From Ectocarpus siliculosus (lineage: Eukaryota; Sar; Phaeophyceae; Ectocarpales; Ectocarpaceae), in assembly GCA_000310025.1 (NCBI GenBank), contig FN649741.1, forward strand, positions 1,782,772 to 1,819,354: a DNA stretch of 36,583 bases, in the 5' to 3' direction. The stretch's first letter is position 1. The number at the start of each line of letters is the position of its first letter. This document shows, in pieces, positions 9,611 through 36,009 of the stretch. Under the pieces are notes generated by a model. The model was given only the letters and a program-made list of their open reading frames with translations, ran no database searches and was not told the DNA's origin. A program made the translations under genes and the position numbers.

Positions 9611-12600
9611 CTAGAGCTTGGACGACGGGCGCTTCATCGTGGCCTGGATGATGCCGTGCGGCTCGTCGACGGGGTAAAATATGTGCGGCAGCCCGGTCTG
9701 GTCGGCGTTGACCAGCCCGTACTTGGCGAGGTCGAAGGGCAGATTGTGGACGTTCGGCATGTAGAACGTGCACTCCGAGACGCTGGGGACGGTGGCCAGC
9801 ACGGCGGAGCCCATCTGGAAGCAGGTCACCTGCACCGACGGGCTGTAGACGCCCTTGTCCGCCGGCCCGGCGAACTGCTCCACGAGGACGTCGATGATCT
9901 TCGCGCGGTCCCCGGAGAAGTCGGGCGAGCGCAGCACGTCGTACTCCCACTCCCCGTCCATGCACGTGCCCAGCAGCCTTCTCGCCGAAAGAGGAGGGTC
10001 AGAGGCGAGCGCGATACGTTAGGGCGAAGAGCACGAACAGAGGGAGAGGGATCTTGGAGAGGGTCAAGGGCGCTTCAACGGATGTGCGTGCTTTGGCGAC
10101 AGACACCCTTGATAACTTCCACGGCTCGCTTTTTTTCGATGAAGCAAACGCAAATCAGTTTAGCGAAAACTTGTCATCCTCGAAGAGACTCAAAACTGAT
10201 TCAAACGCCATCCTCGATGTATGTGCGTCGGAGAGATGTCATTGGATACAGAACAAATTATGGCCCAGCTGCCTTGTGAGTGATATGCATGGGGAAAACG
10301 CCCGCGTGCCACTTCGACGCATGACCAGCTGTGCCTGCCACAACAACACATTCGCGACATCGCACTCCACTGGTAGCTCGGGCGCTGTCCGGAGAGGACA
10401 CTGTGTTCGTACCCTGACAATACCTAACAGCCTTTTGAGCCCGCGGGTGCTAAGGGTGGGAGCCGCTTCTTTAGGGCACAACTCGCCGGTATGTTTCCAC
10501 GGCCGCCGGTCATCATTTCGTGACAAAAGTGTGCGTTTACGCCTCCATCGTTCCTCCTGGACACCCTCACCTGTCTTCCGCCTCGGGCAGGGAGGTGTTG
10601 TTGTCCTTGTGGAAGTTTGTGAAGGACGACTGGGTGGTCTTGAAGAGCGTCAGGCCCTTGACGCCACCGAAGGCTCGGATGCTGATCCGCCCGCAGGGCT
10701 GCCGCGTGCCCTCGCTGCGGCCGAACAGGTAGTGCGGCCCCGCCTTGAGGAACGCGTGGTCGTGATCCCTGGTCTTCCCGGTGCTGTCCGCCGTCCGTAC
10801 TCGCTTCCAAGTGTCCTCTTTAACCATCACCCGGCACCGATGGACGAGGTCCGGGTATGTCGCCAAGAAGTGTCTGCGGGGTCGTGCGCCAAGGGTGAGA
10901 AACGCGAGAGGGAGGGAGGGACGGACGGGCGAGGGAGTTGAGGCACCACCACGGCAGCACGAAGGAATCGAGAGGTCGTTGGACTCTCCCCTCGTGTACG
11001 TTTATTTAAGACAAAGTCCCCTCGGGTACGTTCATTTAAGACGAAGCGCAGGGAGCAGCAGGATAATCTCGTGCTATTTTCAGAGACACGTTAGCCACGA
11101 CCTTCGTCGCAGGTAGACATCTTGCGCATCTTGGTTTTTTCAATCCGTGCAGGGTCAGTCGATCACATGTTGGTTTGTGGTCGCTGACGCAGTCAACGTG
11201 GTACCCATACGCTGCATAAGACACCACACATCCCCGTGCGATTTTCAAAGCGCAGATACTCCGCAACGAAGAGGACGCCAAATTCGAATGGTACGTTTTC
11301 GAAAAGCTTTCGACAAGGAGGTTTCAACGCCGCTCTTTTCGGGACCATCGTTACGTTTGTTACGGAGTAACCGGGCTGTGGGAATCGGTCCACGGTGTAC
11401 AGTATCTACGCGCAACCTGGGGTACTATAGTTACGAAAAATCAGCGCAGCGAGCACCAACACCCTTTTCGCTATTTTCAGCGACACGTGAGCCAAGACTT
11501 TCACAGGTAGACTATCTTCGTTTCTTCAATCACTGCATCGGAGTGTCAGCCAATCACGTGCTGGTTTGCGGTCTCTGGCGCAGTCAAAGTTGTACTCATT
11601 GTGATAACAACCAAAGCGTTTGATACGTATTGATAAACAGCGCCGACCCTACGGAGCGCCACCGCGTAGGTACTAGGGAGCAGCAGCAGCAGCAGCAGCA
11701 GCAAAAACACCCACTTTGCAACGATGATGGCGAACTGCTCCGCGCAATCGAAAGAGGTGGTCTTGGCCAGGACGTACACCGTGTTCTTTTGTGTGTCCGT
11801 CGGGATGATGAGCGAGTTGTCCGCCGCGGTAAAGGCGGCATTTGTCGGGCCATCCAACAGAATCTCAACGTTGAACTGCAGCACTGAGTGTACCGGACCC
11901 CGCCTGATCACCTTTGTGGTTGTGTTTTAGGACAGCAGCCGCACCACCAGCAGGGTGCAGGATACATCGGCGACAACACAGACGGGGGCAACACGTTTGT
12001 TTCAGTCCTGGTGCAATGGGCGGCAGTTCATCACAGTTCCACATGTGTAGCACGAGAAACAGCTGTGGGTGGTTCAGTTGGCGCGTGTTCGTGCCTCTAT
12101 ACGTGACAATTGACATCTTGAAAGGCCATCTACGCAGACGGTGCTAGGTCTTTACAGCTGTGTAAATGCCAAAAGCAGCTTCATTCCGACCGGCGCTGAA
12201 ACCGTGACGATACACGGGGACACGGGGACCCTCTTTTACGGTGTGCTGCTCTTGGCGGCACTCCCTCTCTTGCATCGACCCTTGTCGCCCTCTGGTGACG
12301 GTAAATACACTACGGAAACAAGTTTCACTTGATAAATACGCGGAGAAGTGTGGATGTCAGGTATAGAGTATATTGGAAGAGTAGGTTTTGACACATCCAA
12401 CGTGCAGGAACCGATCCTTAGAAGCGTCCTGACCACCATGGTACTGTACCAGGAGACCACCGGTGGCCGACCACTATGGTCACGGAAGACCACTACTTGT
12501 ATTGGATCACGGTTTTTCTCTCGACGAACCTGGTGCATAGTACTAATATCACAAGAGGACATCCTAGAGCAGCGGGGGGTGCGTGTTGGCGCGCTCAAAT

Positions 12601-15600
12601 CTGCTTCTGTGGTGGTGATAACGAGGGTTGTACTACAGTAGTGGCCTACAATCTCCGCAAATCTCCGCAAATTAGACCAACACCCAGTGTATTGTACTGC
12701 TTGTGCGCGCCGCTACTGACCCCAATCTCCTGAACTGCGGGTTTACAGCAGTAGCTGATGCCACTAACTCTCATTCATAGGTCTAACAAAGCAAAGTTAA
12801 ATAAATTGGCGCGAAGCGCAAAAAGAAGGGGCAAAGTGAGACATCAAAGCAAGCGTAGATAGATATGGGTGGAACCTACGCCACCACAGAGGTCACCAGT
12901 GCACACGCTCACACCTCACCCGACACCACCAGTCAGCCAGGGGATGAATGAGAGCGCTGTGTAGTTCTCATCATCATCAGCTACATGTAGCTGCTGCTGC
13001 TGCTGCTGCTGTGAGTGGATGGGTGTGCACTTGCTTTCCTCGTTTTCGCTGCTAGCAGCGGGCAACGGGCTCTGAAATCGGTCCCATCCTACGATGTGTG
13101 TATTTGGCCGCCCTTGGCCTACAGCGTTGTGTACGTCTCACTTGTCTCTATTTCGGGGGTGCTTCTGTGATGGAAGCAAAGATCGGCCTGCAGACGAAGA
13201 TAGACCACAGACAGATTTGACTTGTGCGCACTCGCAGGTCCCCTTGCTTACGCTGCTAACAGCAGGCCTCGGGCTCTAAAAATAGCTCCCGACCCCAGGC
13301 ATGATGTGTGCCTTTGGCCGGCCTTGGCCTACAGCGGTGTGTACGTCTCGTTGTCTCTGTTGTGGGGATGCGTCTGTGTGGGAAGCTCCAAAGATCGGCA
13401 GTAGTAGAGGATGATTCAGACAGACCGCCGATTGACTTGCGTCGTCACTCGCTTGTGCTGCCCACAGCAGGCAACGGGCTGTAAGAGTCACACCCGACGC
13501 CTCCTATGATATGTGCCTTTCGCTGCCCTTGACCTACCGCAGTCTCGTATGCTGCTGTGCTGGTTGTTTCGTATATTGTCCAACATGCGCTGCTGCTGTG
13601 CTGCGTCATTCAAGAAGATTTCGGGGATTCTCCCCGAGCGTCGTCCCATCGCCCAATCATCTGTCTCTGTCTTACACAATGTCTTACAAGGTCGACGTGT
13701 GATTGGTGGGAGATGGGTATCTACCCGGCTCTACCCCTAAAACATACCAGTAGATGATTGTTGGAAGTTCCTCCGTATATTACAAAAATTGCCCTACTGT
13801 ACGTATGGGTGCGCTGCCAATATTTCAGCTCCAGTATGGGGGGACTGCTGTCGCCATAATAAATGAAGTACAGTCGTGGGCCCTGTTCAGCGGTCCATGG
13901 TGTCACGAAATTTTATAACCGCGATTCAGGGCATCGCCGCTAAACCTCTTTAGCGGTTATGAACCGCTAAACCGGGAGGCTCAACAGCGCTGATGAACCG
14001 CTAAACCGGGAAAAAGCCCATTCTTGCCCACCAAGAGCAGCGTCGAAAGTTCATCTTGATACGGCCTGCATGTGTCTCATTGCAGCAGTCATACGAAGGT
14101 GCAGATGAAGAAGTATCGACCCTAAGGATGACAACACAGCAAGCACATTAGTGAATTTCAATTCACGAAAGCGTAAAGCTCTTTTTCCCTGATGGACTGT
14201 ATGCCCTTCTTCATTACGACTGACTGGAAAATCGTTCCCGTCTGTAAGGAACGTGGGGCACAAGTTCGTGACAACGCAATGGCAACCAACCACTTGCTTG
14301 AGCAGCAGCTCATTGGTACTATTTGTCGCGTGTATCGATCATGCTTAACCCAACACCTCTCTGATATTCGCTGCGAGGAACGCCATTTTTGCCTTGCGAA
14401 GATAGTGTGCTGCCTCGCCCACGCCACACAACTCCACGCACTCTTCAAGCTGGCCAAAATGCACCGATAGCTCCGAGTAGGGGGCTGCACCATCACCCCC
14501 TTTCGCTTTGCACCGTCAACTTCTGCGGTGCAATCTCGCTCTAGCTTTAGCTCTAACTCGTCGTCGGAGGGGGATAGGCCCCTCCATGTACATACTGGAG
14601 AACTTCTCAACGAGCTTGTTATTCGATCCTTCTGCAAAGCTTCGATCTATTCCTGCGCGTTATTTCTGAGTGCGCTACCTTGTAGTCAAGAATATTCAAA
14701 ACCTCAAACTTCTTGGCAAAGTTGGGCCGCGTGCGGGGCCGTCGTGTAGCTGCAGCGCGAGTTGTTTTTTTCCGCGCCTGGTGCTAGAAAGCCACTTCCC
14801 GCCTCTTTGCGCTTGGTTGGGTGGATTCGAGAAGCTAGGGGAACTCCGGGCCTTCTTGGTTGCACCCTATTGTTGGCAAAGGCCGTGCATCGGGTTGCCA
14901 TCAGGATCCTCCACCTCTCCATACATGCCGTGCATGCGGCCACCACAGTCACCTTTACAATCGTGCGCGCCGCTCGGACTCAGTGGCGCATCTGAAAGCT
15001 ACAGTAGTTCTCCATCCGCGCACCGCATAGTGTGTGTGTGTGTTGCTGTGTGCTTCTACGACGAGCATCGACGACGCTAAGCGGCTGATCAATGTCGCTG
15101 TGTCGCTACAAAATTTGAGCCGATACTGTAACCGCTATTGGTGGCTGAAAAGATGCCCAGTAACGCTATTGAGGGCACGACCGGTTAGCAGTTGCTACGC
15201 TAAACCGGGGTGCAGCCGTGTCACAAGGTTTTGTAACCGCTATTCAGGGTATCCCGCTAAGCAGGGAACCGCTAAACCGGGCCCACGACTGCAGGACGAA
15301 AACAGCAGCAGCACAACCTGAACGTGCCAGCACGCACAACGCCTCTTGATGGTGTCCTCCACTGACACTATTTAGTACTAAGTACATACCAGGTTCCTCC
15401 GGCGGGAAGGTTTTTTCTTTCTTTATGTGGGATTAAAGTACGAGAAAAGAGCCAGCATCAATACCCCTGTGCTGAACTCTGAACCCTATGCGGTCGACTG
15501 CTGTACCTAGTGTTGTGCCGTAGCTTGCGTAAGATATCACACCCCCTGGCCCGAGATGCAAAGCTCTCCGAATACTCGGCAGGAAACACAGCAGTGACGG

Positions 15601-15893
15601 TGCCGGAATGGCGGCGTTGGAATTCTCTCGTCGAGAGATTGCCGAAAATGCATCAGTTGAGTTCGGCATCCTCTTAGCCGTGGAACAATGGAGGTTTGAA
15701 GTTCGGTCCAGGCAGGGGATGTGCAGGGGTGTGGTCCCTTGATGCAACCCCCATGTGCTGAAAGCGCTCCAACGTGTCGGAGAACTCGCACTTGGGCACC
15801 TGAACCAACGATATCAAACCACATTCACACACTCACTTTCGTGACTCGGACCCTCCCTTTTCCATGGTGGTTTGATGCAAGCACGGCAGCCAT
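9611..15893 (-). CDS. Urate oxidase (uricase), peroxisomal, complete, 4 exons
   Basis: Oxidises urate to 5-hydroxyisourate and H2O2 in purine breakdown. Exons run 15893-15837, 11911-11715, 10873-10571 and 9977-9611. They total 924 bp (307 residues plus TAG), normal for the family. All introns are GT-AG and phases agree at each joint. Residues match the uricase active site: Lys12 in HGKGRVRV, Thr57-Asp58 in IPTDTQKNT, Arg186 after LPEAED, Gln235 in SPSVQVT, and Asn261/His263 in MPNVHNLP. The KTTQSSFTNFHKDNNTSLPE segment is the family's typical core. The C-terminus is SSKL, a canonical PTS1 signal, so it should act in peroxisomes. Intron 1 is 3.9 kb and hosts a mobile element and tandem repeats. 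The residue before Gly11-Lys12 is His where Tyr is usual. The permease gene lies upstream on the same strand. Confidence 0.95.
10987..11044. repeat. Tandem duplication, about 27-29-bp unit, two copies
   Basis: The unit tcccctcgtgtacgtttatt followed by taagacaaag is repeated immediately with three to four substitutions. It lies in uricase intron 2. Confidence 0.7.
11065..11600. repeat. Diverged direct repeat pair (about 11070-11215 and 11463-11597)
   Basis: Both copies run in the same order through gctatttTcag-gacacg, then gccaagac or gccacgac, caggtagac, tttcttcaatc or tttttcaatc, cagtcgatcac or cagccaatcac, tggtttg-ggtc, gcgcagtcaa and gta-cat. The spacing between copies is about 390 bp. 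They lie in uricase intron 2 and carry no coding signal. Confidence 0.6.
11679..11702. repeat. (AGC)n microsatellite
   Basis: Eight AGC units, sitting 12 nt past the donor of uricase exon 2. On the gene's sense strand it reads (GCT)n just inside intron 2. A second CTG run of about seven units lies at 12991-13011 in intron 1. Confidence 0.9.
13020..13560. repeat. Tandem repeat, about 205-bp period, about 2.6 copies
   Basis: The landmark caacgggctc or cctcgggctc recurs at about 13064, 13268 and 13473, giving periods of 204 and 205 bp. Each unit also contains atgtgtg-atttggccg, cttggcctacagcg-tgtgtacgtctc, and aagatcgg. Divergence between units is roughly 20-25%. It lies in uricase intron 1. 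Confidence 0.75.
13895..15285 (-). mobile_element. Dispersed element, copy A, bounded by direct repeats
   Basis: Two direct copies of a roughly 70-100-bp sequence bound the unit, at 13898-14010 and 15213-15280. Each reads gtgtcac-a-ttttgtaaccg, attcagggcatc and ccgctaaaccggg. Inside, the minus strand carries pieces of a Cys/His protein: CGGRMHGMYGEVEDPDGN then MHGLC (about 14950-14880). Further on, near 14478-14350, it carries HYLRKAKMAFLAANIREV, broken by stops. The same sequence occurs in the opposite orientation at 26340-26855. No transposase family is recognised. It is inserted in uricase intron 1. Confidence 0.6.
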
Positions 15894-18056
15894 AGTGCTC
15901 GCTGCGTAGAAGTGTAACGTCGTTGGACTGAACAACACGAAGGACAGAATCAGGAGGGATTTTTGCTGATTGAGATCTACCAGATCTCCGTCCAGATCTC
16001 CGTTTTCGGAACTCAGGAGATCCAGTGAAGTCTGCTGTGTGGCTGCATGATATCTGCACATCTGCACATGTTTGTATCAGTGTGCATGTGAGAGCACAAC
16101 CCAGCACTCATCATCACCATGCATACACGGCGGAAGATATGGAAGAAGCGCGAACAGTCGGGATCCAACCACATCTATCTATCCGACGGCAGCAGCAGTA
16201 TTGGTACTCTCCCGTGTCTCCGATATACTGCTGTACTGCTGTTGTGTAGTCTAGACATGTAGCTCTCACCAAACGAAAGGGCATGCAGTGAGTGATATTA
16301 GCGTCACACCCACCACATCCTGCGCATCTTGCCACTAACGGCGAAGCGGGGCGGGTCTTTCGAAATGAGGGCCGCTCGGCAGCGGATATCCACTCCCTAC
16401 CCGGGTAGGTCTTCTCTCCGCCGATGATACTATAATACAATTGTTGTTTGTTTAGTCTACTACTCTGTATTGTACATGATGCTGCTTGCAAAGTAAAACG
16501 AGTGAGCGATATTGTTGTAATAATGATGCTGTGTACGACTGCTGTCGCACCAGTGGACATACCTGCAGTGCCGGCCGTGTCAACAAATATCGTCGCACGC
16601 AAGTGTTCTCGTCTAGGCTCGTACTGGACCAAGCCGCCGGCACTGTACATACATACATAGACTAAAGCTTTTTGACCCTTGCTCAAAGCAAGTGTTGCCA
16701 GCACTCTCTGTGCCAATAGGTGGATCGATGCAGCTGAGAGAACCTACCTGTCTGTGTGCTCCCAGTTCCGGTCAGTTGTTGTCACCGCTAAGCGACGCCT
16801 ACTGTCTATATACAGAGAAAGTTTGTAATCGTGGGGTCGGGTAAGCCCTTCATTTCGTACCATATTCACATCACACGGCTACATCCAGAGAGGAAGAGAC
16901 ATTATTGTGGGTCGCGCAAGTTCGGAAGTGCGGACGTGCACCGTATCCCATCTCTATTTCCCTCTCTCTCTCCCGCCCTTCAAAATAGACAGCAATTTTG
17001 AACCACCCAGGATCGTTATTTCTCTCGCGGTGACCTCACCCTGTTTGCTTTTTTACCCCCGCCCCGCGGTGCTTCACCGACACTATTTATATCACTGCCA
17101 CTACCTCACTACAACGTCTTGTCACTAACAATGTGGCAAGGTGCGTGGTAAAGGTGTACCCGTGTCGACTGGCAGTTATATCTTCCAATGTTTTGAACGT
17201 GATTACACACACCACATGCTTGACTGAAAAGGGCAGGCGAGGGACGGCGGTGTGCACCGGGAAAAGGGATGGAATGGAGCGCAATGCACGCAACAGCAAC
17301 AACAGGTAAATTTGCAACAATCAATATCCTACCGCTGTAGCGCGAAGTGTATATACTCCTTTCAAGATTACGAAGCTGTCCTCTAGACCAGAGACATTTA
17401 TACTGTTTGTCGCGCCTGCGCTCACATCCAGGGTAGTAGGGTGTGCAGGGGACAAGGAAGAGGAGATGATAATATGAAATGTCATCGTGCCGGAAAACAC
17501 AACCAACCAAGACCATCCGCTCAGCAACTTCTAATATCCGCACTGATGGTCCAACTGAGGCGGATGCCTTCCGTGGTCACAGACCAACTGCCCATAAAAG
17601 TTACACCGTTTGGACAACAAAGAAACTAATCATAAAATGGAGGTGGAGTGAGTGTATTCGCCGTCGGAAATGACACCGGCTGAGCCAATCCTCACACGCC
17701 CATCCAAAACAAAATCATGCGTGGGTGATTCAAGATCGCTACACCGGGACAACCTAATATAAGGAAAAATACAAACACAAACAAGATGACAATTATCACA
17801 TCGGGGGGCATTGAGAGGGGGGGGGGGTTAGCGATACAAATTTGTGAGAGGGACACGAAAAAACTTTCACCAATATGATATTTCACAGGCGACGCAGTCT
17901 ACAGCAGTAGAATATACCACGACACAGCATGCCGGCTGGGTCTTCCAAATACATATTCATTCTTGGGACCTCTCCCTCTCCCGATGATGGGGGCATGATC
18001 TAGAGAGAATGAACAACACGCCTTTTCAATTGTATACAACAAACCTCCTACTTGTT
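15894..18056. promoter_or_regulatory. Upstream region of uricase; no gene recognised
   Basis: The region upstream of the uricase start. A 200-codon minus-strand ORF (16716->16114) has no recognisable domain and no splice partners. The stretch from about 17530 to 17700 is a dispersed repeat, listed separately. The uricase promoter must lie near 15894 upward, but I see no clear TATA element or other motif to place it. Confidence 0.3.
17530..17700 (+). repeat. Dispersed repeat, copy 1
   Basis: The sequence atatccgcactgatggtcca, then actgaggcggatgccttccg, and further on ggagtgtattcgccgtcgg with accggctgagccaatcct, matches 25975-26272 in the same order and orientation with moderate divergence. 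It is non-coding. Confidence 0.55.
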
Positions 18057-18325
18057 GTACGCCTCATGTGATAAAAATGATAACTCTGCACGCCGGTGCA
18101 CAAGCTATAGAACCTAGGTACTTCAAAAATGGAAGTCAGCCGTGTGGCCGGCCGACGTCAGCTCCCCCAAGAAAACGCCTTGTGAGAGAAGGCATCAACC
18201 TCGTGGCTCCTGCGGGTACGCCTCATGTGATGAAAAATCTGCACGGTGACATCAAGCTAAGACCTACATATAAAATGGAGTCAGTCACGCTCAACAGCTG
18301 ACGTCGACTCCCCAAGAAACCCCCC
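18057..18325. repeat. Tandem duplication, about 157-bp period
   Basis: Two copies begin gtacgcctcatgtgat-aaaa (18057 and 18214) and end gacgtc-(a)ctcccc(c)aagaaa-cc (about 18155 and 18303). In between they share ctgcacg, ctaagacc or ctaggtac, and aaaatggagtcag. It lies downstream of the permease 3' end and upstream of uricase. Confidence 0.6.
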
Positions 18326-18923
18326 TCCGAAGACGTCACAACCTCGTATCCCAGGGCCCAAACTGCACACGCCGTTGCGCTACCCTATCACATAATACGT
18401 TCCACTTTTTCAACCACTACTGTGTGCAATTTACTTGGTGTTATCCTTACGACGAAGCATCAATCCTTCCATTGTGATACTATCATAGAATACAACTCTC
18501 GTAAGAAGGGAAGAGTGGGCCGCGGGCGTGGTACACGCGTGAACGCGGAAGAGCGACGGAGGCAAAGTTTTGCGACGGGCGCGCGCGTCAAAAAATGAAA
18601 AAAAGAAACTTGAGCCGAAAACTCTCCCCCGGGCAGCATTGCCAAGGTCTTGTTCGACTTCGGACGAAATCACTGTGAACAAGCTTGGACGAACAGCCCG
18701 CAGTTCGAGCAACAACGCTAGTTTTCTTCTCGCCTCGTACAGCTTACGGGTATAAAACATACTTGGCCTGCCGTGAAACAGGCGGGCTCCCCAAAACCTT
18801 GGTGTGCGGTGCACATCGCAAGGCTGTTCCTTCGCGACCTTGAGCTGACGCGGAAGCTTCAGCCGGAAAAATAATGGTTTGTAGAAGGGGGGTCCCGTAA
18901 TTTCTTACAAGGGGGGGGGGGCG

Positions 18924-18974
18924 TTAGATGGCTTTCTTGGCCACGGGCGCGACCTCTTCGGTGCCCTCCTCTTA
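18924..18974 (-). other. Open extension beyond the permease stop codon
   Basis: After IFE-TAA the same frame continues for 15 codons, EEGTEEVAPVAKKAI, to a second TAA at 18924-18926. The extension is acidic then basic, like a cytoplasmic tail. A GAA-to-TAA change, a sequencing error or occasional readthrough could each explain it. Confidence 0.45.
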
Positions 18975-21900: not shown

Positions 21901-24767
21901 GTGGTGACGTCGCCGATCGTCTCGACGGTCGTCACGATGAAGGCGAGGATGCTGGGAAGGATGAGGGGCGGGTACACCGACAGCGGGTACGTGAACACCC
22001 ACAGGAACGTGATGCTGTCGGCTGGAAGGGGAGGGAGGTGGGGGGACAACATTTGATGCGCGCGAGAAGGGAGACGGGGCGGGGGTCGTAGTGTTTGTCG
22101 ATTTGAGCGGGAGCAGCACAACGGAGGGGGGAGGGCCCTTGACACGACACCCTGCGCGAAGTCGGCCGCCAGTACTATTTTTTTTTGTGTTGTGGAACGA
22201 CGAGTAGCGAACGAGTTCCGCCGCACACCCTGCCCCCCGGCGTTATCGTCTCCCGTCCGCCTTGTTCACTAGAAAAAAAGATAAGATGTGCGAGGTTTTT
22301 GTCCCCACGCATGCATGCACACACCTGCGTCGATCTTGTCGCTGACGACGTAGTCGTTGCCGTTGTTTTCGGAGACGGCCGCCACGAAGTAGCCGAAGAG
22401 AAGGGCCACGACCACGTTGATGCTCCGCATGAAGGGAGAACCAAACACTTCGAGGNNNNNNNNNNNNNNNNNNNNNNNNNNNNNNNNNNNNNNNNNNNNN
22501 NNNNNNNNGGGGGGGGGGGGGGGGGGGCGAGGGGGGGTTACTTAAAGTCGTACATGCCGTAGTCGTTAGACCATTGACCTCGCATCCCTACAAAGCCGGG
22601 GCGGAGCACGCCGGGTTCTCACCGGACCAGGCTCTCACATCACCAAGCGCGAAGCGCCGTGAGGTATTCGGCGAGTCGCATGAAGGGGGCGCTGCATCCT
22701 GCTAAGGGTGTTCGGCATCTTGTGCTTACTTCCTTGCGTGCGAATGACAGCTGCGTATGACTTCATTTTTTTCTGGTGCTTTAACTTCCAGAGACAGCTG
22801 TAAGCACTGTGTAACTGCCTCGAGGGTGCTCGACCAATATAACACAACGTGGTGCGATTATCCCCCTTGCACAGAGCGAGGGTTCTCCACCCCGCACAAC
22901 ATGATCTACTCGACCACCATTCATGGTTGCCGCAAAAAACAAAAAACGAAGGCAAAAACAAAAACGGTAACCTGGTTGCCGAGCTCACGAAGTGATAGGC
23001 TTGTTTTAGCAACATCGTTGCCAAGCGACGAAATCCCAACCCCGATGGCAAACACCGGGGGGGGCGGTGGAGGGGGGTTAACAAGGAAAAAATAACGAAA
23101 GAAAGGCGTTTAGTTGGCTGTACGCTGGTCGCACATGCAACAACATACGCACGACTCATCTCGACAGCTGTAGCGGCGGTATCGTACGCGGGGCACACGC
23201 CCCCACGTGCGGCTCTACCTAAGCATTAGTCTTCACGGCCGTTTTTACACGGATCTACGAAGCACAATCAAGGTCGGCGTCTTGCTTTGGGGCGCGGTGC
23301 TACGCGATGGAATGTACGTACCAGCATGGCGAACACGGAGAACCCGAGGCCGACGTAGACGGCGGACCCGAAGGGCAGGACCACCTCGCCGTTTCCTCTG
23401 CGACAGGAGGAGATTTGGAGAGCACAACAGATTGTTTGCAAACGAAGGAGACACCCACCCACAAACACCGCCAGGGAAACCACGCGTCCAGTTTTTTTCT
23501 GTTACTGCTACACGGTATCTGTCTTTAATCCGGAGAGTATCATGTAGCCTCCCCTATGACAGCTCCTCACGGGGTCCCAGATCATGGCATTTGGAAGAAT
23601 TCTGTAATTTTAACCGCACTGAGACTGACATCTTTTCATTGGTCATCCGGTTGGCGCGGTCGATGCTAACGATGAAAAAACACACACACACACACCGCAC
23701 GACAGCCCATGGTGCCAATCGTGGGTACAGGAGCCAGAAAGGTGAACCGAATGAATGCGCGTGTGGGTGAGGAGAAACAACGGATGCTCCTCGAGGCTCG
23801 GCTATCTACGGTTGGTCTAGTTAACGCTGCGCCGCAGATAATTCCACACGTGTCAAGTTCCACGCATGTGGGCCGCTCACCCGCACAGGATGTCGATCGC
23901 GTAGTTGTCAGCACAGAAGGCACCGCCTCCCCAGTACTTGAAACCCGTGCCCACGAGGGCCGCGCCGATGAGGAACACGGTGACACCGGTCACGATGGGG
24001 GGGAAGACCTTGCGCAGGGCCTGTACATGTATGGTGATAAATGTTGCGTAACCAAGCTAGATACTTAGTAGGTCAAAGGAAACTTGCAGAAGGGAGCGAA
24101 CGGTGATTTTCCAGCAGCAACCTCAAGATCATTTCGCTACATAGGTTCCAACGTTAGAGACGCGCCGTGTCAAAATGGAGTGGAGGACAAAGCACATGTG
24201 GACGCTGCGGCTGGTTGAGCTGAATGACCCGGTGTGTACTGCCAAGCAATACAGGAGCAGCGTACACAAGCCCTCCTACATTGGGCTTGATGAAGGCGAG
24301 GAAGATCTCCACCCAGGAGCAAACGAGGAACGTTCCGAGCACCGCGCCGTAGGCCTTCACGCCGTCAAATTCGTCGTTGTCGTCGAGGAACTCAGACTTT
24401 TCCTTCATCTGCGACGAACGAAGGAAAGAACGAAATGTACAACAGTGGTTACACAACACCCCGCGTATGTCACTGGCATCACCCACTCATTACCTGGATG
24501 CACTAGGTACAACACACGCTGCGACAGACAAAGAGAGAGGCAGGCACACAAGCAACACACCCAACACGTTGTGGGTACAAATAAGACGATTTTCTTGCGA
24601 TTTTCTTGCGCCTGCGCCAGACATATCGATCGATCCGGGGACCAAGACGGGAGTGCATGCATCCATCCATGCGCATTGGAATCGCATCGGAAAATAACAC
24701 AACACACAATGTTCTAACAACATCGCCCAAAGACTTGAGAGAGAGCGAGCGAGAGAGAGAGGGAGCG

Positions 24768-24839
<72 letters not shown>

Positions 24840-27800
24840 GACGCTTCCGCATTGCCCGGCTGCGGACTCCTGTAGGCTCTGTGTTTTGCTAATCCGTTGC
24901 CTTGCCTGGGATATGGCATCGCGCGCCACCGGGAGGAAGGTGAAAGAGGTCCCCATCACGGACACGAGGCCCGTGCCGATGACGATGTTGGTCTTGGGGA
25001 TCTTGACCTGCATCACTTGGATGATGGAAGTGATTCCCGAGACGATCAGGGCCGCGGAGATGAGGTACTGAATCTGCTCCGCTGGACTGCATTTTCGCAG
25101 AGCAGCACAAGTTGTTTCACGAGCATTGGAGGGGGATCGGGGGGGGGGAGGGGGGGCGTGCTCATGTTTTGCATGTGTGTAGACCATGGACCACGCGTCC
25201 TCGAGGATGGAGCATCTATTCTCATGCAGGACCGATCACCGATGGCCAATCGTCCCTTCCTAAATACTTTGCCACCGGAGGAGGAATGGACGACGAAGTT
25301 TTGAATTGTACGATGATGGTCGATGACGGTGCCTCGCCGTCCAGGCTGTCGGCGAGGAGAGACACGGTATGAATACCACAACCTGCCGGATGACGTTGTG
25401 TTTCTCATTGCATCGTTGCCGCATAAAGTAACATCAGACCGTTGCCGTTGACCACAAATACCTAGACTAAGTACGAGGATCAGGCATGATGCAAACGTTT
25501 GCACTCACAGGTTCGCGTCGAAAGTACCGGCGACAAGCAAGGGGACCGTGATCACGCCTCCCACCATGGCCAGCGCGTGCTTCAAAGTTTTTTTCGCAGC
25601 AAGGACGCACGAAAGGGGGGGAATTCATCACAGCGAGAACACGAGCGAGGGAGAGAAGGGGGATAGAGAAGATATTAGGTTCTCGCGTTGCTTGCGATTG
25701 GACGGCATATAGTTGGCACGTCTCGTCAATCTGATCAGGACGAAGCGAGACTTAACATGTTGGAGGTATCTCCTCCTCCAAACAGAAACAAAACGAAACA
25801 AACCAACGGTTTTTGTTGTTGTTGCTGCTGTTGTTGTTGACATGTTGGAGGTATCTCCTCCTCCAAACAAAAACAAAACGAAACAAACCAACGGTTTTGT
25901 TGTTGTCGCTGCTGCTGTTGTTGTTGTTACCTTTATTTATATCAATAACTGTTCCGGTCTCCGCAAAGTACGTTCTAAGATCCGTACTGGTCCAACTGAC
26001 GCGGACGCACCTTCCGGGGCACGCCAACTACCCAACAAAGGGTACACATATTTGCAAATAAATAAATAAACGGGAAAAAAAGATAAGACCCAGACAAATC
26101 TTCCGAATGGGATAGATAATACCGGATCATGAATCAAATCGGGAGACGAGGCAACCCGGCAAAAAAAAAGTAGAACAATAGGAACGCCTCATCCAAACGA
26201 AAAGAGTATGAGGGAGGGAGCCGGAGTGTATTCGTCGCTGGGGATGCACCGGCCGAGCCATTCCTTACAAAAAAAAACACGTTTATGTGTATCCGCTACT
26301 ACAGTAGAAGTAGTGTAGATGGTTAACCAACACCAACACAACAGTCGTGTACCGGTTGGTAGTGGTTCCCTGTTTAGCAGGATGCGCTGAATAGTGGTCC
26401 CAAAAATTCGTGGCACGGGTGCATGCCAATCAATGTAGCTCGGTTAGTAACGCTAAAAAAAGTTTTAGCCACCATTACGGTTATCAATTCAAAATTTGCG
26501 GAGCGCGTGCTTGCGCTTGGACACAGATAGCGAAAGACATGAACACACCATGCGGTGCGCGGATGGATGCAGAGTTGTGCAAGCTTCCAGATGCGGCACT
26601 GGGTTGTTGTGGCCGCATGCATAGCGTGGGCGGGGAGGTGGAGGATCCGAATGGCAATGAGATGCACCGCGTTTGCCACTCATGTGCAACCAAGACGGCG
26701 CAGGCCTCCCCACGCGTGCGTCTCGAATCCACCCAAGCGCACAAACAGGTGGCAGCTTTCTATCTATGTAGCACCAGGTACGCGCAAGAAACCAACTCGC
26801 GCTGTACAGCTGCACGCGGGAAACGAACCAAAATACCTACGGTAGAGTGTTAGTGTGCGCGTTCCTGGGATAACATAGTACACAGTCTCAACACCACAGA
26901 CCGCTGGGGGCGGCAGTGCACACTAACATAAGAGTCTAGGACAACCCACTTCGTGTACACTCTTGACAGACGTGTAGAAAACATTATTATCCAGAACCTA
27001 CACAACAATCGTAGTCTATGGCTGCTGTAGTGAGACCATGCGTAACCGTAAGAGTAGCTTTTGACGATGTTTTTGTTTTGAGCAAAAAATGCCCTTTCCC
27101 GGTTTAGCAACTCTAAAGAGAGGATGGCGGCGATGCCCTAAATAGAGGTTACCATACATAGAAGTAGATGATTTCGTGACAATATGGACCGCTTTCCACG
27201 ACTGCTGTACTTTTTTCAAAAAAATATATGGCGAGTACTTACTGCTGCGCCAAGCCCTTCCCAATTATAATTAGTATTCCAGATCATGGCAATTCATCAC
27301 TGATAACCTTGAAAATACAAAACAGCTGGTAGGGCCCTCGCGGATCTGATTTGGTTTGTGAGAGGTAGAATATAAATACATCTTCTTGCTTCTTCTGTCA
27401 TCGCAAATAACAGACAATCATCTTTGCACCGCCACGCCGTGCGCTCCGCATGCCCAAACCCATCTTTACCTCTGGTGATAGATCGTCATTTCTACATAGC
27501 AAGTTTTCTTTGATGCGACCGCTGTTCGCCAAAGAGAAAACTCGAGGAGAGGAGGGTGTTTTTTCGACCACCACCGGTGCGGTGTCTCGTGGTCTATCTG
27601 CACGACGTCCTGGCGGCAAGTCGTGGGTTCGATTCTTCTCTCTGGAGGGTTTTTTCCCGGGATTTATTTCCAGTAACCTGTGGTCGAAAGCAATCTACAG
27701 CAGTAGGTCGTGAGCGAGTAAACAAAGTTCGGCTTCACGGTCGACGAGGGAAACGGATGGCTTATTAACCCTTCCGCGATAAAACTAAGGCAAGCACCGT

Positions 27801-28892
27801 AGGTGGAAGGTGGGGCAACAAAGCAAAAAAATAAAAACATGCTCCTTCTGTCTGTATGACCTTCCTCTTGTGTGAACCCGGCTGATGTACGTCAGGTATT
27901 TTCACCGCAAGGGCAGTAATCCGGCTCCAGAATAGATGGGACGAGCAGACACATATACATAGCACTGACTGACGCCTTTTCATTGGTCAGCCGGTTAGCG
28001 CGGTCGATGCTAACAATGAAAACACACACACACACCCGGACTGGTCACAGGGCTTTTGTACCGAGCACCAGTACAAGTAATTAGCAAGAACGAAGTGTCC
28101 GCAGAACCTTCGCGCCCAAAATGAAAAGGGGTCGATTCCTGTGTATGCCTTTGGCTTCGGAAGGACAAAAGCGTCCCCGCGTCCCCTCACCTGAAGACCC
28201 ATGACAATTGCAACAAAGGGGGCAACGGCATCGTCGTGTCCGAAGAAAGGCGGCTGCTCTCTCGCCTCCCGCTTGAACTTTATTGTGTTAGTGTGTGAGG
28301 CCGATTCGTACACGGGCGTCGGCGGGGGAGTCTCGGAATTAGTTGAAGTTCCCAAAGAGCTATTCTACAGATCGATCGAAATTCGGCAATCCACCAGGCA
28401 CCGCAGAGAGACCGATGTGCCTATCGATCTACAAGCAGTATCTACAGGATGTAGTTGCTGGAACCGTTTTCTCCGTAGGTCCGCAGCGAGAGACGACAGC
28501 ACACACCTTACATGTAATGAGGTCGTGCGGCGTGTGACGACGGAAGAGAAAGGCAGTCACATGTAATTGGATCTTCGTATGCATATGCTACTACAGCAGC
28601 AGCGGTATACTTCAGTGAGTTATTTCTTCGTCACCCATTGTTTATGTGCATGCGTTGACAGGGCCGCGTTCGACATGCCCACCAGGCAGCACATACATCG
28701 TATATCCAATGGACGGTTAGGCTGCTCTCTACACAAAACAAATAGTTTCGACATTTCCCATCTCGTACCTCAACAAACGGCACGCAGAGTGCATCTATCT
28801 GAAGCGCTCTTTCTCTCTCACTGACTACTTACCGGATTTGGCGGCAGGCAAAGGAACTTCCAGTCATAGCTTCCAAAAAATCGTTCCGCCAT
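18972..28892 (-). CDS. NCS2/NAT urate-xanthine permease (UapA type), 12 exons
   Basis: A plasma-membrane proton-coupled nucleobase carrier. Exons run 28892-28833, 28364-28191, 25579-25509, 25086-24906, 24408-24280, 24020-23881, 23397-23322, [gap]22455-22325, 22021-21852, 21341-21162, 19915-19685 and 19109-18972. All joints keep frame, giving about 565 residues against about 570 for UapA. The TM1 QH motif is split by an intron (VIVMGLQ|HALAMVGGVITVP). TM8 carries VETIGDVTTTAEVSRL with its Glu. The NAT signature QNNGVIALTRCASRRAG follows, then FFTSIPDCVLGGMTTFLF and LSTGYSMGCAAAIILNLIIP. QNNGVIALTR is the motif seen in urate/xanthine rather than uracil or ascorbate members. Intron 4 uses a GC donor (CAG|GCAAGG). 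The start of exon 8 is lost in the assembly gap. The reading frame stays open for 15 codons past the TAA at 18972-18974. Divergent from the deaminase. Confidence 0.95.
20440..20890. repeat. Direct repeat pair in permease intron 10
   Basis: Two blocks share gcaccccggtgtcataac, gggtgccat and accggtgcggaaa (about 20452-20510 and 20785-20885). The order of sub-blocks differs between copies. The caccccggtgtcataacacc segment can itself fold into a small hairpin. It is non-coding. Confidence 0.5.
22456..22508. other. Assembly gap (53 N) with degraded G-rich flank
   Basis: An N run is followed by a roughly 17-nt G run and gcgaggggggg to about 22537, typical of poor base calls next to a gap. It removes the acceptor and the first few codons of permease exon 8, immediately before LEVFGSPFMRS. 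Confidence 0.95.
23633..23697. repeat. tRNA-like hairpin followed by (CA)n, copy 1
   Basis: The segment ttttcattggtcatccggtt continues ggcgcggtcgatgctaac and gatgaaaa, then (CA)n. Its near-identical partner is at 27977-28035. TGGTCATCCGG resembles a Pol III A box and the layout recalls the D and anticodon arms of tRNA-Ile/Val, but no B box follows. It lies in permease intron 6. Confidence 0.55.
24736..24837. repeat. (GA)n microsatellite, about 100 bp
   Basis: Nearly uninterrupted GA dinucleotides with a few GCGA and GGGA variants. It lies in permease intron 4, about 70 nt downstream of that intron's unusual GC donor, and reads (CT)n on the sense strand. Confidence 0.95.
25755..25927. repeat. 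Near-perfect 85-bp tandem duplication
   Basis: The unit starts acatgttggaggtatctcct (25755 and 25840), contains the self-complementary ggaggtatctcctcc, and ends in a GTT/GCT trinucleotide run. The two units differ at only a few positions, so the duplication is recent. It lies in permease intron 2. Confidence 0.9.
25975..26272 (+). repeat. Dispersed repeat, copy 2
   Basis: Shares taagatccgtactggtccaa, ctgacgcgga-gcaccttccg, ggagtgtattcgtcgctgg and caccggccgagccattcctt, in order, with the copy at 17530-17700. About 100 bp of AT-rich extra sequence lies between the blocks. It is in permease intron 2. Confidence 0.55.
26340..26855 (+). mobile_element. Dispersed element, copy B (shortened, inverted relative to copy A)
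   Basis: This is the reverse complement of part of copy A (about 14740-15285). A plus-strand frame of 147 codons (26410-26853) stays open and includes LGCCGRMHSVGGEVEDPNGN, then MHRVCHSC. That gives a C-C-x-x-x-H ... C-x-x-C arrangement like a small zinc-binding domain. The boundary sequence with gtttagcagg and gctgaatagtgg is at 26375-26400. An isolated end fragment, tttcccggtttagc, lies at about 27096. The copy is within permease intron 2 and is non-autonomous. Confidence 0.6.
27583..27640 (+). repeat. Degenerate tRNA-like segment
   Basis: TGGTCTATCTGCACG resembles a Pol III A box. About 35 nt later GGTTCGATTC resembles a B box. Acceptor and anticodon stems cannot be formed convincingly. 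It is possibly the head of an old tRNA-derived SINE in permease intron 2. Confidence 0.4.
27977..28035. repeat. tRNA-like hairpin followed by (CA)n, copy 2
   Basis: Terminal inverted bases ttttcattg / caatgaaaa enclose an inner inverted pair gttagc / gctaac, followed by (CA)n. It matches 23633-23697 almost base for base. The TGGTCAGCCGG stretch fits a Pol III A box. It lies in permease intron 2. Confidence 0.55.
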
Positions 28893-29528
28893 CGTTGCAC
28901 TCGTTCTGCTGGAACCGAGGAAACAGAGATTGATGTCGTGGGGAAAATTATGACGTTGGTTGGTGGAACGGTCTTCTCCCAACAAGCAAGCGCGGAGCGA
29001 GAGAGAGGCAGACTTCCCTTGGCGTGGACAATCTCTACTCAAGAGCTCGAGCAACGCTCGCGCCAAGACAGGCACATCCTTTGCTCTAGCATGTTGCGGG
29101 CAAGACAACCAAGGGGTGAGACGATATCCTATTTTTTTCTTTCCCCTGCTCTGTTCGCGAAACAAATGAACGGAGATCAACAGCCCTACCCCAGCAGGTG
29201 GTGGCACGGAAAGGTACGCTCGCAACTCTTGTACTTTGAATTACGCGCCGTGCAGGGCGTGGGGAGGAGACGAAGGCAGAAGGGGGAGAGGTGTAATGCC
29301 CCAAAGAGAATGAGTAGACTAACAAGCCATCCCCATCGGCCCTGCGTAATATTCGGAAGGGCGGCATCATGACGTCACGAGACTGTGGGATTTGGATATT
29401 TTCGTAGATTCGGACTATTCATGGCTGGGTCTCCTTTTATTCCACCGCATCACCGCGCGTGTCGGCGTTCTGCTGTAACTAGCTTACAGGCAATCAAGGG
29501 AGGGCAGGGAGCAAGAAGCAAATAGAAG
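28893..29528. promoter_or_regulatory. Bidirectional promoter region, permease (-) and deaminase (+)
   Basis: The two start codons are 636 bp apart on opposite strands. A perfect palindromic TGACGTCA (CRE/bZIP-type site) lies at 29370-29377, about 150 bp before the deaminase ATG. No convincing TATA element is seen. A 144-codon ORF across the region has no recognisable domain and I treat it as chance. Shared control of the two genes is inferred from geometry only. Confidence 0.5.
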
Positions 29529-32500
29529 ATGGAGGCATCAGGTCTTGCTCCGGAGGAAGTTGTGCTCAGACTCCTCGACGTCATCGAGAAGGATATTGTT
29601 CCAATCACCACGTGAGACAGCCAGAAGCGGGGTGGCAGGCAGGTCATGAGGCAGGACCAGCTGGGCAGGACTTGATATTTGACGCTCCAACCCACTTCAT
29701 CTTTTTACGTAAGGCCTCTGGCGCCTACCTACCCGAAACGGTTTAGAATACCACTTATACATGCAGTAGCTGGACGTGGGTTTTTACGGTGGTTGTACCA
29801 GAGCGTTCGTTGCAGAACTCATTACTTGTACCTTTTCAACTAAACCAAACAGCAAGCTTGGGCGCTCTTTCAGCCGTGAGTACCTCAACTCACCTGTTGA
29901 ACACGAGCGATATTGCACGCCCTTGTATCTGGCACACGCCCTTGCAGCAGCGACGAGCAGAGTGAAACAATAACCCTCCTGGCCTGGCTGAGGCGTAACC
30001 AGCCAGAGCGTGCTGGCGTGTGTTGGACAAGTGCGACATCTTCGTAGGTCCTATTGTAGCACACGTGTGTGCTGTTGCTGCTGTTGTTGCTCAGGTGTCG
30101 TCTTCACTTTATCACCTGGGTTACACAAGATAGCACCCCCCCCACACAAATACAACTCCCGGTGATATGTTTCCCAAACGCAAAAAAATTCCCCGGGGTG
30201 TGTTGGCTCATGTTGTATAGGGTATCCATGCCAGCCCCTGCCAATTAATTATCGTTCACACCGTGTGCATTTCACCTCTGCAACAGCAACAGCAGTAGTT
30301 GTTGCAACACCCAATCTAACCCCGCATCAGCCCCCCCCCCCCTCAGAGAGAGGTAAACAAGTACGTGCAAGCCCACATGTTGTAAGTAGTATTGTAGTCG
30401 ATCTGACTCCAATATTCCCCATCCTACAGTCGGTACCTCCATCTCGTTCATTGGTAGAAAATCATGCTGCAAAGCAAGATAATTATTTAGTGTACGCATT
30501 TTGTCAGCGAGACCGTGGCCATCATCTCTCCTTGACACCGTGGAGAAGTGAACGACAGCCTGTACCACGCTTGTCCGACAAGCTACATGTAGGCTATGCG
30601 ACATCGGGTGACAAACGAAGTAGTACCATAGGACCTTCCCCACACGCCGGGTGTACGCTTTGACGGTTGTGGTGGCACTTTTATGGTAGGTAGAGTATAT
30701 GCATGACCGCAAGTTTCACCTCGTGCCACTAAGCATGTTGTACAGGATGGACCTTCGGCTGGCGCGTGAACTTGTACATTATTTGCAGGAGACAGCACAA
30801 CATCGGATCCAACTGTTGTAGATAGCTCTTGAAGATGCTGAAGAGCGACTCTAGTAAACAGCCACCGCCTCCCCCAAACAACAACCACCTGCAGGGAAGC
30901 CGTCAAGAAGGGGAACAAAGTTTTCGGCGCTGCCATCCTCAAGCTTTCCGACCTCAGCCTAGTTGTGGCGGGAACCAACACCGAGATAGAGTGCCCTCTC
31001 TGGCATGGCGAGGTGAAAAAGCCGAATATCGATGTACAAGATAGGAGAGAAGGGGGAGGGGGGGAACCTCAATCTTAAGATCACGATCAATTTCCACGCC
31101 CAGTCGTACGAAAAATAGTCATTCAGTGATGCCGACGTTTCGTGGCACCTGAACTCTCGTTGTCGGCAAAACGATGCCGTCTAACCCGGGGATCCCCTCG
31201 TCCTCCACTCGTGCCCCCACCCGTCTGGCCTCTGGGGGCGGGGCTGTTCCCTCCCATGTTCAACTTTGGTGTTGGATACGATGCTCAAGGGTAATATCTG
31301 CGCGGTTCTTGACACCATGAAATTCAACATGAGAATACAGGCACGGGTCCATGCGGAAAGTCGTGTCCCAAGGATTGCAATATCCATAGTGTGGTAGCAC
31401 AAACAGCAGACATATGCATAGGCGCGACACAATTTTACTGTCAAGAGTGTTTTCCGGAAATGTGTACATAGCTTGTGTTACACCCACGTTCTAGCGCCCC
31501 TCCTTTGTGCATTGCCTGCACGCTGCTCCTACCTCTGGTGCTGGTGCTGCTGATGCTAAAGGTTGCGTGCATTAAGAACTTTTGGAATCTACCCGAAGAA
31601 GGACGTCCCCTCCCGTCCGAGTGCCTCATGCTGGCCACCCATGAACCGTGCTCAATGTGTGTCAGCGCCATCACCTGGTCAGCCTTCAAGGTGATGAGTG
31701 TTGGGCTCTGTGATGTTTGGGTACTCTACTCCGCCGCGTCGACCAACGGACCTATGAAATGGCCACCGTTGTATGCACGGTCCTCCGAGCGGAGGCAGAA
31801 TTATCGTGCGTATGCGGTTGTGCTTGTGTAGGTGCGGGCTTGTGTGTGTTCCAACATACAAGTACTCTTTTGTCGAGACATCTTGCATCGTTTGCCGGCC
31901 TATGTTAGGTATGTACTTCGCGTAAGCTGTCTACACGTTCGTGCGTGCCAGCTGTTCTTGCGCATGTGGTTGAGCATGGCTTTGTGCATACCCTTTGTGT
32001 GGACAGGAACGTAGACAGAAAGCTTACAACGCACTTCAGTACTTGAATTGTCCGGAAGTCCAAAAAAGGCTGGGCTGTCTTCAATAAAACGGTTTGCGGG
32101 CACTATAAATGTACAGCGCGGAACAACCTGGAGTAGCCCCCCCTCCCCCTGCGTGTCTGTGCGTCTTTCCAACCAACCAGGAAATACACTTCTTGTTTTC
32201 GATGGAAGACTCGCGGGATGCTTTCAACATCCCGCACGACCTGCGAATCTACCAGGAGGTGTTCAAGTGCGAGCGAGCGACGAGGGAAAACAAATTCTGG
32301 AAGGCGTACGACCTGCCAAAGGTAGACCCTGGCACCACCCTGCCCGTGCTTCATTGGCCAGCAGTACCTTGACGACGGCTGTCGGACGGCCGCAGAAGAT
32401 CAACGATATAGTCAAAGGAAACATGAAAGTTTCTCGGGTACCTGTCTCCTGGCTGGTCTATAATTGCACTAGCCAAACCGAAGTCTAAGGTTTCTCCTGT

Positions 32501-32828
32501 TCATGAGCGCTAACGACCGAAACTCCTGTTGTTGACGGCCTCCCCTGGTTCTCTGTTGGTAGATTTCCGGCATATCCCCACGATGCACCTGCAATCATCG
32601 TGTCGGCCGAAGCTCAGTGTGACACGAAACGGAATCAAAATCGCGGCGTTCCTTTATTCGATGATGCCTCCCCGTTGCTTGCGATCTATCAAGGTGGTTG
32701 AAACCCTGCCAGAGAATGGAGCGTTGGGGGAAAAGGTGACCATGCTGAGGGAGACGTACGCCTCGTTGTCGGAGCTGTACCAGGACTCCAAGGGCGGGGC
32801 GAGCAGCACGCGTATCCCCCTTTCGTAG
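29529..32828 (+). CDS. CDA-fold zinc deaminase, complete, 5 exons
   Basis: A hydrolytic deaminase of the cytidine/deoxycytidylate deaminase superfamily. Exons run 29529-29611, 30895-31012, 31562-31690, 32181-32321 and 32694-32828. They total 606 bp (201 residues plus TAG), with GT-AG introns and compatible phases. Family marks are GNKVFGAAIL then LVVAGTNTEIECPLWHGE, with zinc ligand His65 and catalytic Glu67. THEPCSMCVSAITW supplies zinc ligands Cys97 and Cys100. The middle part (FSMEDSRDAFNIPHDLRI) belongs to an uncharacterised COG0590-like branch and differs from classic guanine deaminase and TadA. No signal peptide or membrane segment is apparent, so it is probably cytosolic. Its divergent pairing with a urate/xanthine permease and nearby uricase suggests a purine base as substrate, for example guanine to xanthine; this is inference. 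Confidence 0.9.
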
Positions 32829-34989: not shown

Positions 34990-35283
34990 ATGGCTCCCAA
35001 ACTCATCCTCACGTACTTGTGAGTGCTTGTTGCGTCGATGCTCTGTTGAGGGCAGAATTGCAACTCTCTTACCGCGCACGATCTTCTTGTTGTAGGTCCC
35101 CGTTTAGCCCGTCACTCTTGTTGCGGTCATCATCATCTCTCACATCCTCTGTTCTGTCGCCACCCCCCGGTTGCAGCGACATGGCCGGTGCTGCGGAGCC
35201 AGTCCGCTGGGCATTGGAAAAGGGAGGGCTCGAGTGGGAAGACAAGCGCTTGACCAGGGAGGAGTTCGGGGCGCTGAAGCCAG
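34990..35283 (+). CDS. Glutathione S-transferase, sigma type, N-terminal exons only
   Basis: Exon 1 (34990-35018, before gtgagt) and exon 2 (35177-35283, after ggttgcag, before gtgttt) join in frame. They encode the thioredoxin-fold start of a sigma-like GST: MAPKLILTYFDMAGAAEP, then VRWALEKGGLEWEDKRLT and REEFGALKP. Tyr9 in the LTYF motif is the expected glutathione-activating residue. The next block of the family (the PFGQLPVLE-type strand) cannot be found in the remaining 1.3 kb. The rest is therefore beyond the window behind a long intron, or missing. It is oriented away from the purine genes and there is no evident functional link. Confidence 0.85.
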
Positions 35284-36009
35284 GTGTTTGTTCTAGCACC
35301 GCACTTGCACCGATTGGGTGCACGCAAAGCAAAGCAGAGCGCTACTAGTAAAGTCAGTCTAGAGCTGCTTGATGCTTCTAGTGCCAAACTCTCGCCCCTG
35401 GGCATCTGGTATTGCCCGTGCCGCTAATGGTGCCCTCGAGTTGCCCCGGCTTTGGGGACGGAGAGGGAGAGTCGGAAGCACCATGTGTCTCTTTGGTTGG
35501 CAGCAGGGGGAGATCTTTGTGTTCTGGTTTCTGGGATTGCGCTGGCTTTGTTACGGACACGTGTAGCTTTTTCCGAAACACTCTGCTTCTGCTTCTGCTT
35601 GTGCAATCCCTTAGTGGCACGTGCAGCAACACCGGACGTATGCTGGCCTGGCGTTTCTGGTTGGCACAGGAATGTGTGTTGGATCCGACCCACACCCGCA
35701 CCTGTGTGCCAACATGTCGCAAGGGAGTTCGTCGCTGGCCATATACAATCGTGTGGAAGAACAGACAGTGGGTAAAAGGACACTGGCTCTTCCCTCCCAC
35801 CCCCCCCACCCCCCAGGCCCCATTCAAACGCCCCGACCCGACATCAAGACTCGTAGCTCTTGCCTTATGAAACCCTTTCAGCATGAACGGCTTTGCAGCA
35901 CTCTCATGCACACATGGCAATGGATGATTCGATTTCCCCCCCCCCTGTTCGCAAAATTTGAATAGGTTGGCGTCGAGTGGCACCGACGCTGTAAAACAAG
36001 CCACCAGCC
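35284..36009. other. Presumed GST intron sequence, no exon recognised
   Basis: Several ORFs of 100-208 codons overlap on both strands, but none shows the expected GST continuation or another domain. C runs occur at 35802-35815 and 35937-35945. Confidence 0.4.

Follow-up and report, generated by a model that had tools for sequence, protein, structure and literature searches.

A probable purine-catabolism gene cluster in the brown alga Ectocarpus siliculosus, with a deaminase gene that is probably of bacterial origin

Genes at the locus

The window, by which we mean the whole stretch of 36,583 nucleotides that was analysed, corresponds to C16:1782772-1819354 of the 189.5-Mb assembly (492 contigs), and its DNA is Ectocarpus-like and nuclear. 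It contains three intron-bearing genes, coding for a uricase and an NCS2 permease on the reverse strand and a CDA-fold deaminase on the forward strand (Table 1). The exon maps were made by aligning brown-algal relatives onto the window and then solving the splice sites, and the introns of the trio are GT-AG with a single GC-AG exception. The three consecutive genes named in a preliminary description of this DNA are all present according to Pfam matches and these maps, but the end points given there were too short; the first uricase exon was absent from it and the permease start lies at 28892. Because first exons had been missed, the genes are closer together than was originally stated. The preliminary description had also recognised no unrelated gene between the members of the trio, which agrees with the absence of Pfam matches in all four open reading frames inside the 3078-bp stretch and in the one scanned of the three that overlap the 636-bp stretch, in a scan of frames of at least 100 aa that could overlook genes built of short exons.

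Table 1. Coordinates of the three genes and the stretches between them, in window positions
Feature	Position	Strand	Basis and remarks
Uricase, 4 exons	15893-15837, 11911-11715, 10873-10571, 9980-9611	-	PF01014 and exon mapping; 308 aa
Uricase-permease intergenic stretch	15894..18971	.	3078 bp; four ORFs of at least 100 aa, all without Pfam match
UapA-type NCS2/NAT permease (predicted urate-xanthine), 12 exons	28892-28833, 28277-28191, 25579-25509, 25086-24906 (GC donor), 24408-24280, 24020-23881, 23397-23318, about 22454-22325, 22021-21852, 21341-21162, 19915-19685, 19109-18972	-	PF00860 and exon mapping
Permease-deaminase intergenic stretch	28893..29528	.	636 bp between divergent start codons; 53% GC
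CDA-fold deaminase of purine-operon type, 5 exons	29529-29611, 30895-31012, 31562-31690, 32181-32321, 32694-32828	+	Exon mapping; 201 aa

No Pfam match was obtained for ten further open reading frames in the window's flanks, and Rfam and tRNA scans of the window were empty. The 10 kb before the window and the first 4029 bases after it are all N, and to the right of it a frame at L122:5683-6027 matches Rieske [2Fe-2S], an indication that an apparently unrelated gene follows. Within the window, a forward frame at 34959-35348 looks by eye like the beginning of a glutathione S-transferase (MAGAAEPVRWALEKGGLEWEDKRLTREEFGALKPG), with no match in Pfam or NCBIfam. An inverted repeat occupies 3309-3625 (arms of 144 nt, 85% complementary, spacer of 29 nt) and a tandem repeat with a 65-bp unit in 6.3 copies occupies 36013-36422.

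The uricase reading frame is intact, with PF01014 found at or above the cut-off in three exons and the family match running along the protein, and the first exon is followed by an intron of 3.9 kb. The protein is 93% identical to a uricase of E. fasciculatus (P0241) and matches PDB uricases with E-values down to 1.5e-48. The gene model ends in SKL, the PTS1 type of peroxisomal signal that had been claimed for it, and targeting to the peroxisome is predicted from this tail. In a six-frame search of the assembly the uricase family was found at a single locus, which is the present one.

PF00860 (Xan_ur_permease) was found at or above the cut-off in two exons of the permease gene, and this family, too, has its only locus here in the six-frame search. 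The exon at about 22454-22325 has its 5' edge inside a 53-base assembly gap (22456-22508), hence its approximate coordinate. The window exons match the orthologues P0122 (Pylaiella) and P0121, and comparison with Aspergillus UapA was made through P0122, which shows full-length similarity to the solved structure (5I6C, E 5.7e-133) and matches four UapA sequences over about 515-525 residues with E-values of 2.6e-131 to 3e-134. The signature motif of the window permease, TFSQNNGVIALTR, is of the nucleobase type with Q and not P at position 4, a residue that is tied to nucleobase transport in the NCS2/NAT family according to a published account (PMC5972032). The permease differs from UapA in having TFSQ instead of TFAQ, and its gene adjoins those for a uricase and a deaminase. 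The identification as a UapA-type NCS2 carrier is borne out by the Pfam match, the similarity of the orthologue and the motif, and urate and xanthine are its predicted substrates. Towards the top of its match list the brown-algal permease has named green-algal and cryptophyte relatives with 48-57% identity. Two of the Chlamydomonas NCS2 permeases (P0156 and P0170) have close locus numbers (10g442600 and 10g442800), both on a contig of 6,576,019 bases. The introns of the window permease hold a direct repeat of 69 nt, 91% identical, at 23623-23691 and 27967-28035.

The deaminase and its bacterial relatives

A deaminase exon matched PF00383 with an E-value of 9.7e-5 and 22.6 bits, under the gathering score of 25 bits, and the joined draft matched no NCBIfam model. 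The draft is 99% identical to a protein of Ectocarpus sp. 8 AP-2014 (P0001), and the gene has a single locus, here, in the six-frame search of the assembly. The database protein of Ectocarpus CCAP 1310/34 (P0002) seems to keep intron 3 unspliced, and the model is probably wrong there. The nearest PDB relatives of the deaminase are chains of the guanine deaminase of B. subtilis (1WKQ/1TIY; E 8e-6 by sequence and 2.1e-10 by profile), followed by a deoxycytidine deaminase (5JFY, 7.9e-7) and a plant guanosine deaminase (2.7e-6), and chains 2G84/7C3S are also matched. Fold family and zinc ligands are shared with the B. subtilis enzyme: the H-x-E and P-C-x-x-C motifs read HGE and PCSMC, and their H, E and both C are invariant in 38 rows. 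The equivalents of N42, W92 and D114 of the B. subtilis enzyme, which we take to be residues of its guanine pocket, are aligned in the algal protein and invariant across its family. Unlike the B. subtilis enzyme, members of the family are extended on the C-terminal side, where they have conserved positions of their own, and they co-occur with a canonical guanine deaminase.

Of 5853 deaminase matches 120 were listed, and the named non-algal ones among these are bacterial; judged by these sequences the family is bacterial in type. A tree of 80 rows was built from four algal sequences (P0001, P0003, P0004 and P0005), the first 70 bacterial or unnamed matches of at least 180 aa and six plasmid rows; the EukProt entry P0003 was counted as brown-algal on 86% identity, and the set was made without P0002, which retains an intron, without the P0023 and P0027 fragments and without lower matches. 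In this tree the algal deaminases group in a single clade among the rest (SH-aLRT 99), with a weak neighbouring branch and a root placed by midpoint only. The simplest reading is that the gene is bacterial in origin and would have been acquired before the sampled brown-algal lineages split.

In bacteria the relatives sit among purine-catabolism genes. A prokaryote genome scan, run from an alignment headed by a Nitratireductor protein, gave 563 confirmed loci, of which the best 80, all chromosomal, were taken. Nearly all are Rhizobiales by title, and every one (80/80) has purine-catabolism neighbours, namely ureidoglycolate lyase (80/80), PuuE/OHCU decarboxylase (79/80), a cupin of inferred ureidoglycine type (79/80), xdhA (77/80), HIU hydrolase (77/80), xdhB (75/80) and xdhC (71/80). 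Since they mostly represent one inherited cluster these loci are not 80 independent observations, and the counts stand without a control gene. An NCS2 permease was near the deaminase in none of these best 80 loci. The Rhizobiales arrangement (guaD - xdhCBA - HIU hydrolase / puuE - cupin - allA - deaminase) resembles the algal one in having the same deaminase family among purine-catabolism genes. It differs in that much of the pathway lies on one stretch and that the best 80 loci are without an NCS2 permease, whereas the alga has three intron-bearing genes and a PF01014 uricase.

A plasmid set comprised 15 regions from 17 records with a relative, H2 and H3 being omitted because their identity, E-value and bits equal those of H1. 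An NCS2 permease lies near the deaminase in 11 of the 15, from Phyllobacterium (five), Shinella, Ensifer, Pararhizobium, Rhizobium, Sinorhizobium sp. RAC02 and the actinobacterium Tsukamurella, the Rhizobium record having its permease only in pieces; the four loci in which it is not nearby are L082, L084, L092 and L093. Purine-catabolism genes were found near the deaminase in five of the 15 plasmid loci, all from Phyllobacterium, so that six have the NCS2 permease alone and four lack both it and all eight purine genes that were looked for. In two loci (L094 and L095) the deaminase match covers only 62% and 53% of the query, with no deaminase gene listed and an NCS2 permease adjacent; these are possibly broken copies. 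The plasmid permeases are of two types with no mutual match at the threshold used, and the algal permease is a third: two brown-algal proteins are 25-31% identical to the UapA-like permeases and have no match to the Phyllobacterium type. The idea that permease and deaminase were transferred together from a bacterium was considered and rejected, both on this identity of 25-31% to the four UapA-like permeases beside a bacterial deaminase and because the brown-algal permease, without a match to the Phyllobacterium type, is closer to its green-algal and cryptophyte relatives.

What the deaminase acts on is less clear than the preliminary description had it, in which the enzyme may feed purine bases into the pathway, although the setting of the bacterial relatives is in line with such a role. 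Out of 25 loci with the CDA-fold deaminase, the genomes of 24 were covered; a canonical guanine deaminase was over the cut-off in all 24 genomes, and in the 12 stretches from 12 of these genomes it always belonged to the cluster of the CDA-fold gene, at a distance of 10.4 to 14.4 kb. Given this co-occurrence and shared cluster, the CDA-fold enzyme is an additional deaminase. 'Guanine deaminase' was rejected as a settled name since the canonical enzyme is also present in the alga as well as in the 24 genomes, and an adenine deaminase role was weighed against the canonical adenine deaminase that is already over the cut-off in 23 of the 24. The name 'purine deaminase' is well founded when drawn from the purine-catabolism neighbours of the bacterial relatives, and we commit ourselves to a putative aminopurine deaminase that would feed the xanthine-urate route. 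Guanosine or a modified purine is a possible substrate, and so is guanine if the enzyme works under other conditions.

Linkage in other algae and the rest of the pathway

Linkage in other brown algae was read from an identical size of the longest contig per match, a fingerprint in which order and distance are not visible. By this measure the deaminase (P0004) and permease (P0124) of Ascophyllum nodosum share a contig of 1,448,011 bases, the deaminase (P0002) and permease (P0133) of Ectocarpus CCAP 1310/34 one of 108,678, and the permease (P0126) and uricase (P0241) of E. fasciculatus one of 20,910. In Discosporangium the deaminase lies on a short contig of 35,967 and the uricase on another of 20,997, which says nothing for or against linkage. 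The matching contig sizes suggest that linkage may be partly conserved, for pairs in Ascophyllum and E. fasciculatus; all three genes on one contig were seen in this window only. The 72 uricase matches, in which clusters at 90% identity could hide names, include none that is named as coming from Ascophyllum or Undaria, and for this reason the trio is seen only within Ectocarpus. Both of these algae have the permease, and the absence of a named uricase could represent a lineage-specific loss.

For three given single-copy loci to come together by chance in 23.2 kb of an assembly of 189.5 Mb the probability is about 4.5e-8, and for any such triple over 500 pathways of 8-16 genes it is 0.001-0.013, the number 500 being an assumption. 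The linkage of deaminase and permease in Ascophyllum gives further support against chance, its contig amounting to some 0.1% of that genome. Overall, the cluster is real and unlikely to have arisen by chance. The 636-bp stretch between the divergent start codons, in which neither TATAAA nor TTTATA occurs, is a candidate shared promoter region for permease and deaminase. According to a study on Ectocarpus, 61.7% of the genes next to TSS-adjacent intergenic regions belong to divergent pairs, whose median gap is 409 bp, and the two members of such a pair are uncorrelated in transcript abundance (0.042, and 0.054 for gaps under 600 bp) (PMC7784034). Since divergent pairs are, by that account, both common and uncorrelated, the head-to-head order alone is no evidence of co-regulation. 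Selection for co-expression under nitrogen limitation, put forward in the preliminary description, is at this point a hypothesis.

The trio is related by pathway, as the preliminary description had it, but is not the whole pathway, because other members sit on other contigs. Two genes of xanthine-dehydrogenase type (MoCoBD_2) lie on C8 at 4274691-4277134 and 4303408-4305660, in the same orientation and about 29 kb apart, and HIU hydrolase lies on C55. A canonical amidohydrolase guanine deaminase, with the yeast guanine deaminase as its best solved relative, is found at C11:5478767-5482550; its joined exon pieces cover profile positions 2-261 of 401 and score 263 bits, short of the 375 required for the whole protein, probably for want of the final third, which is unjoined. 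OHCU decarboxylase had no match in the assembly in a search in which 4 of 14 controls rang, and exon splitting could explain this. Allantoicase (PF03561) had no assembly match with controls equally silent, and nothing follows from it.

Interpretation of the cluster

We consider it fairly probable that the locus is a small eukaryotic purine-catabolism gene cluster of a permease, an aminopurine deaminase that probably came from bacteria, and a uricase predicted to be peroxisomal. Three unrelated adjacent genes of one pathway are found, the deaminase being assigned to it by bacterial association only. The permease would take up urate and xanthine, the deaminase would convert an aminopurine to an oxopurine entering the xanthine-urate route, and the peroxisome would be where the uricase oxidises urate. 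Bacteria would have supplied the gene for the deaminase to a common ancestor of the sampled brown algae, in which or after which it was placed head to head with the permease, and selection rather than chance may hold the genes together.

That uricase and permease are accidental neighbours, with an ordinary deaminase gene landed alongside and no selection involved, seems unlikely to us. The scattering of the remaining pathway genes and the fact that the full trio was seen in this window only would be in line with it, as would the frequency of close divergent pairs in Ectocarpus and their lack of co-expression (PMC7784034); against this stand the three single loci within 23 kb of 189.5 Mb, the same-sized contig for deaminase and permease in Ascophyllum, which belongs to another order, and the fact that the deaminase family adjoins two other NCS2 permease types in bacteria. 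A role of the deaminase outside purine catabolism, for example in pyrimidine or nucleoside salvage, which would leave only a permease-uricase pair as the cluster, is more doubtful still. CDA-fold enzymes do differ in substrate, the deoxycytidine deaminase 5JFY comes directly after guanine deaminase among the PDB matches, and two annotated plasmid loci have no purine neighbour at all, but such a role is difficult to reconcile with the purine-gene neighbours of all the best 80 of 563 loci, the NCS2 neighbours on plasmids and the W and D positions held in common with guanine deaminase.

A more serious alternative, which we regard as possible without preferring it, is that the protein is a second guanine deaminase of bacterial type that converts guanine to xanthine in a different compartment, tissue or stage of the life cycle. 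Its nearest solved relatives and the alignment of the guanine-pocket positions fit well with this, as do the matches to plant guanosine deaminase and 2G84/7C3S. The canonical enzyme on C11 weighs against it, and the presence of a canonical enzyme in all 24 bacterial genomes, within the same cluster in all 12 stretches, argues for a different job. In a speculative extension, to which we give only a small chance, the enzyme would belong to a third purine deaminase family distinct from the guanine and adenine deaminases, which may turn 8-oxoguanine or isoguanine into urate or xanthine and which evolution would have paired with NCS2 permeases at least three times (two bacterial types and, after transfer, the eukaryotic UapA type), so that the alga would hold a captured and rebuilt urate-supply module.

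The aminopurine-deaminase cluster that we prefer is of a kind already known, the eukaryotic metabolic gene cluster. The DAL (allantoin) cluster of yeast is a physical cluster of nitrogen-scavenging genes for purine breakdown that includes a permease, and in being eukaryotic, devoted to purine breakdown and provided with a permease it is comparable to the trio. It differs in that DAL begins at allantoin and has other genes, whereas the algal genes act at or above urate, one of them is of bacterial type, and the lineages are unrelated. None of the three genes is an allantoin-degrading DAL gene, and the sample of open reading frames scanned had no other Pfam match. Purine-gene clustering in brown algae was the subject of none of the papers listed in the literature searched, some of the lists being capped (in one case at 20 of 2178). 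A survey of 317 conserved gene neighbourhoods in green algae is without the words purine, xanthine, urate and uric in its main text (PMC7826186).

The recurrence of this deaminase beside unrelated NCS2 permeases, and its co-occurrence with a canonical guanine deaminase in all 24 genomes, hint at a purine reaction that is so far unassigned. A gene for a bacterial-type enzyme that lies beside a eukaryotic permease of the same pathway also lets one test whether horizontally acquired genes stay where they are useful.
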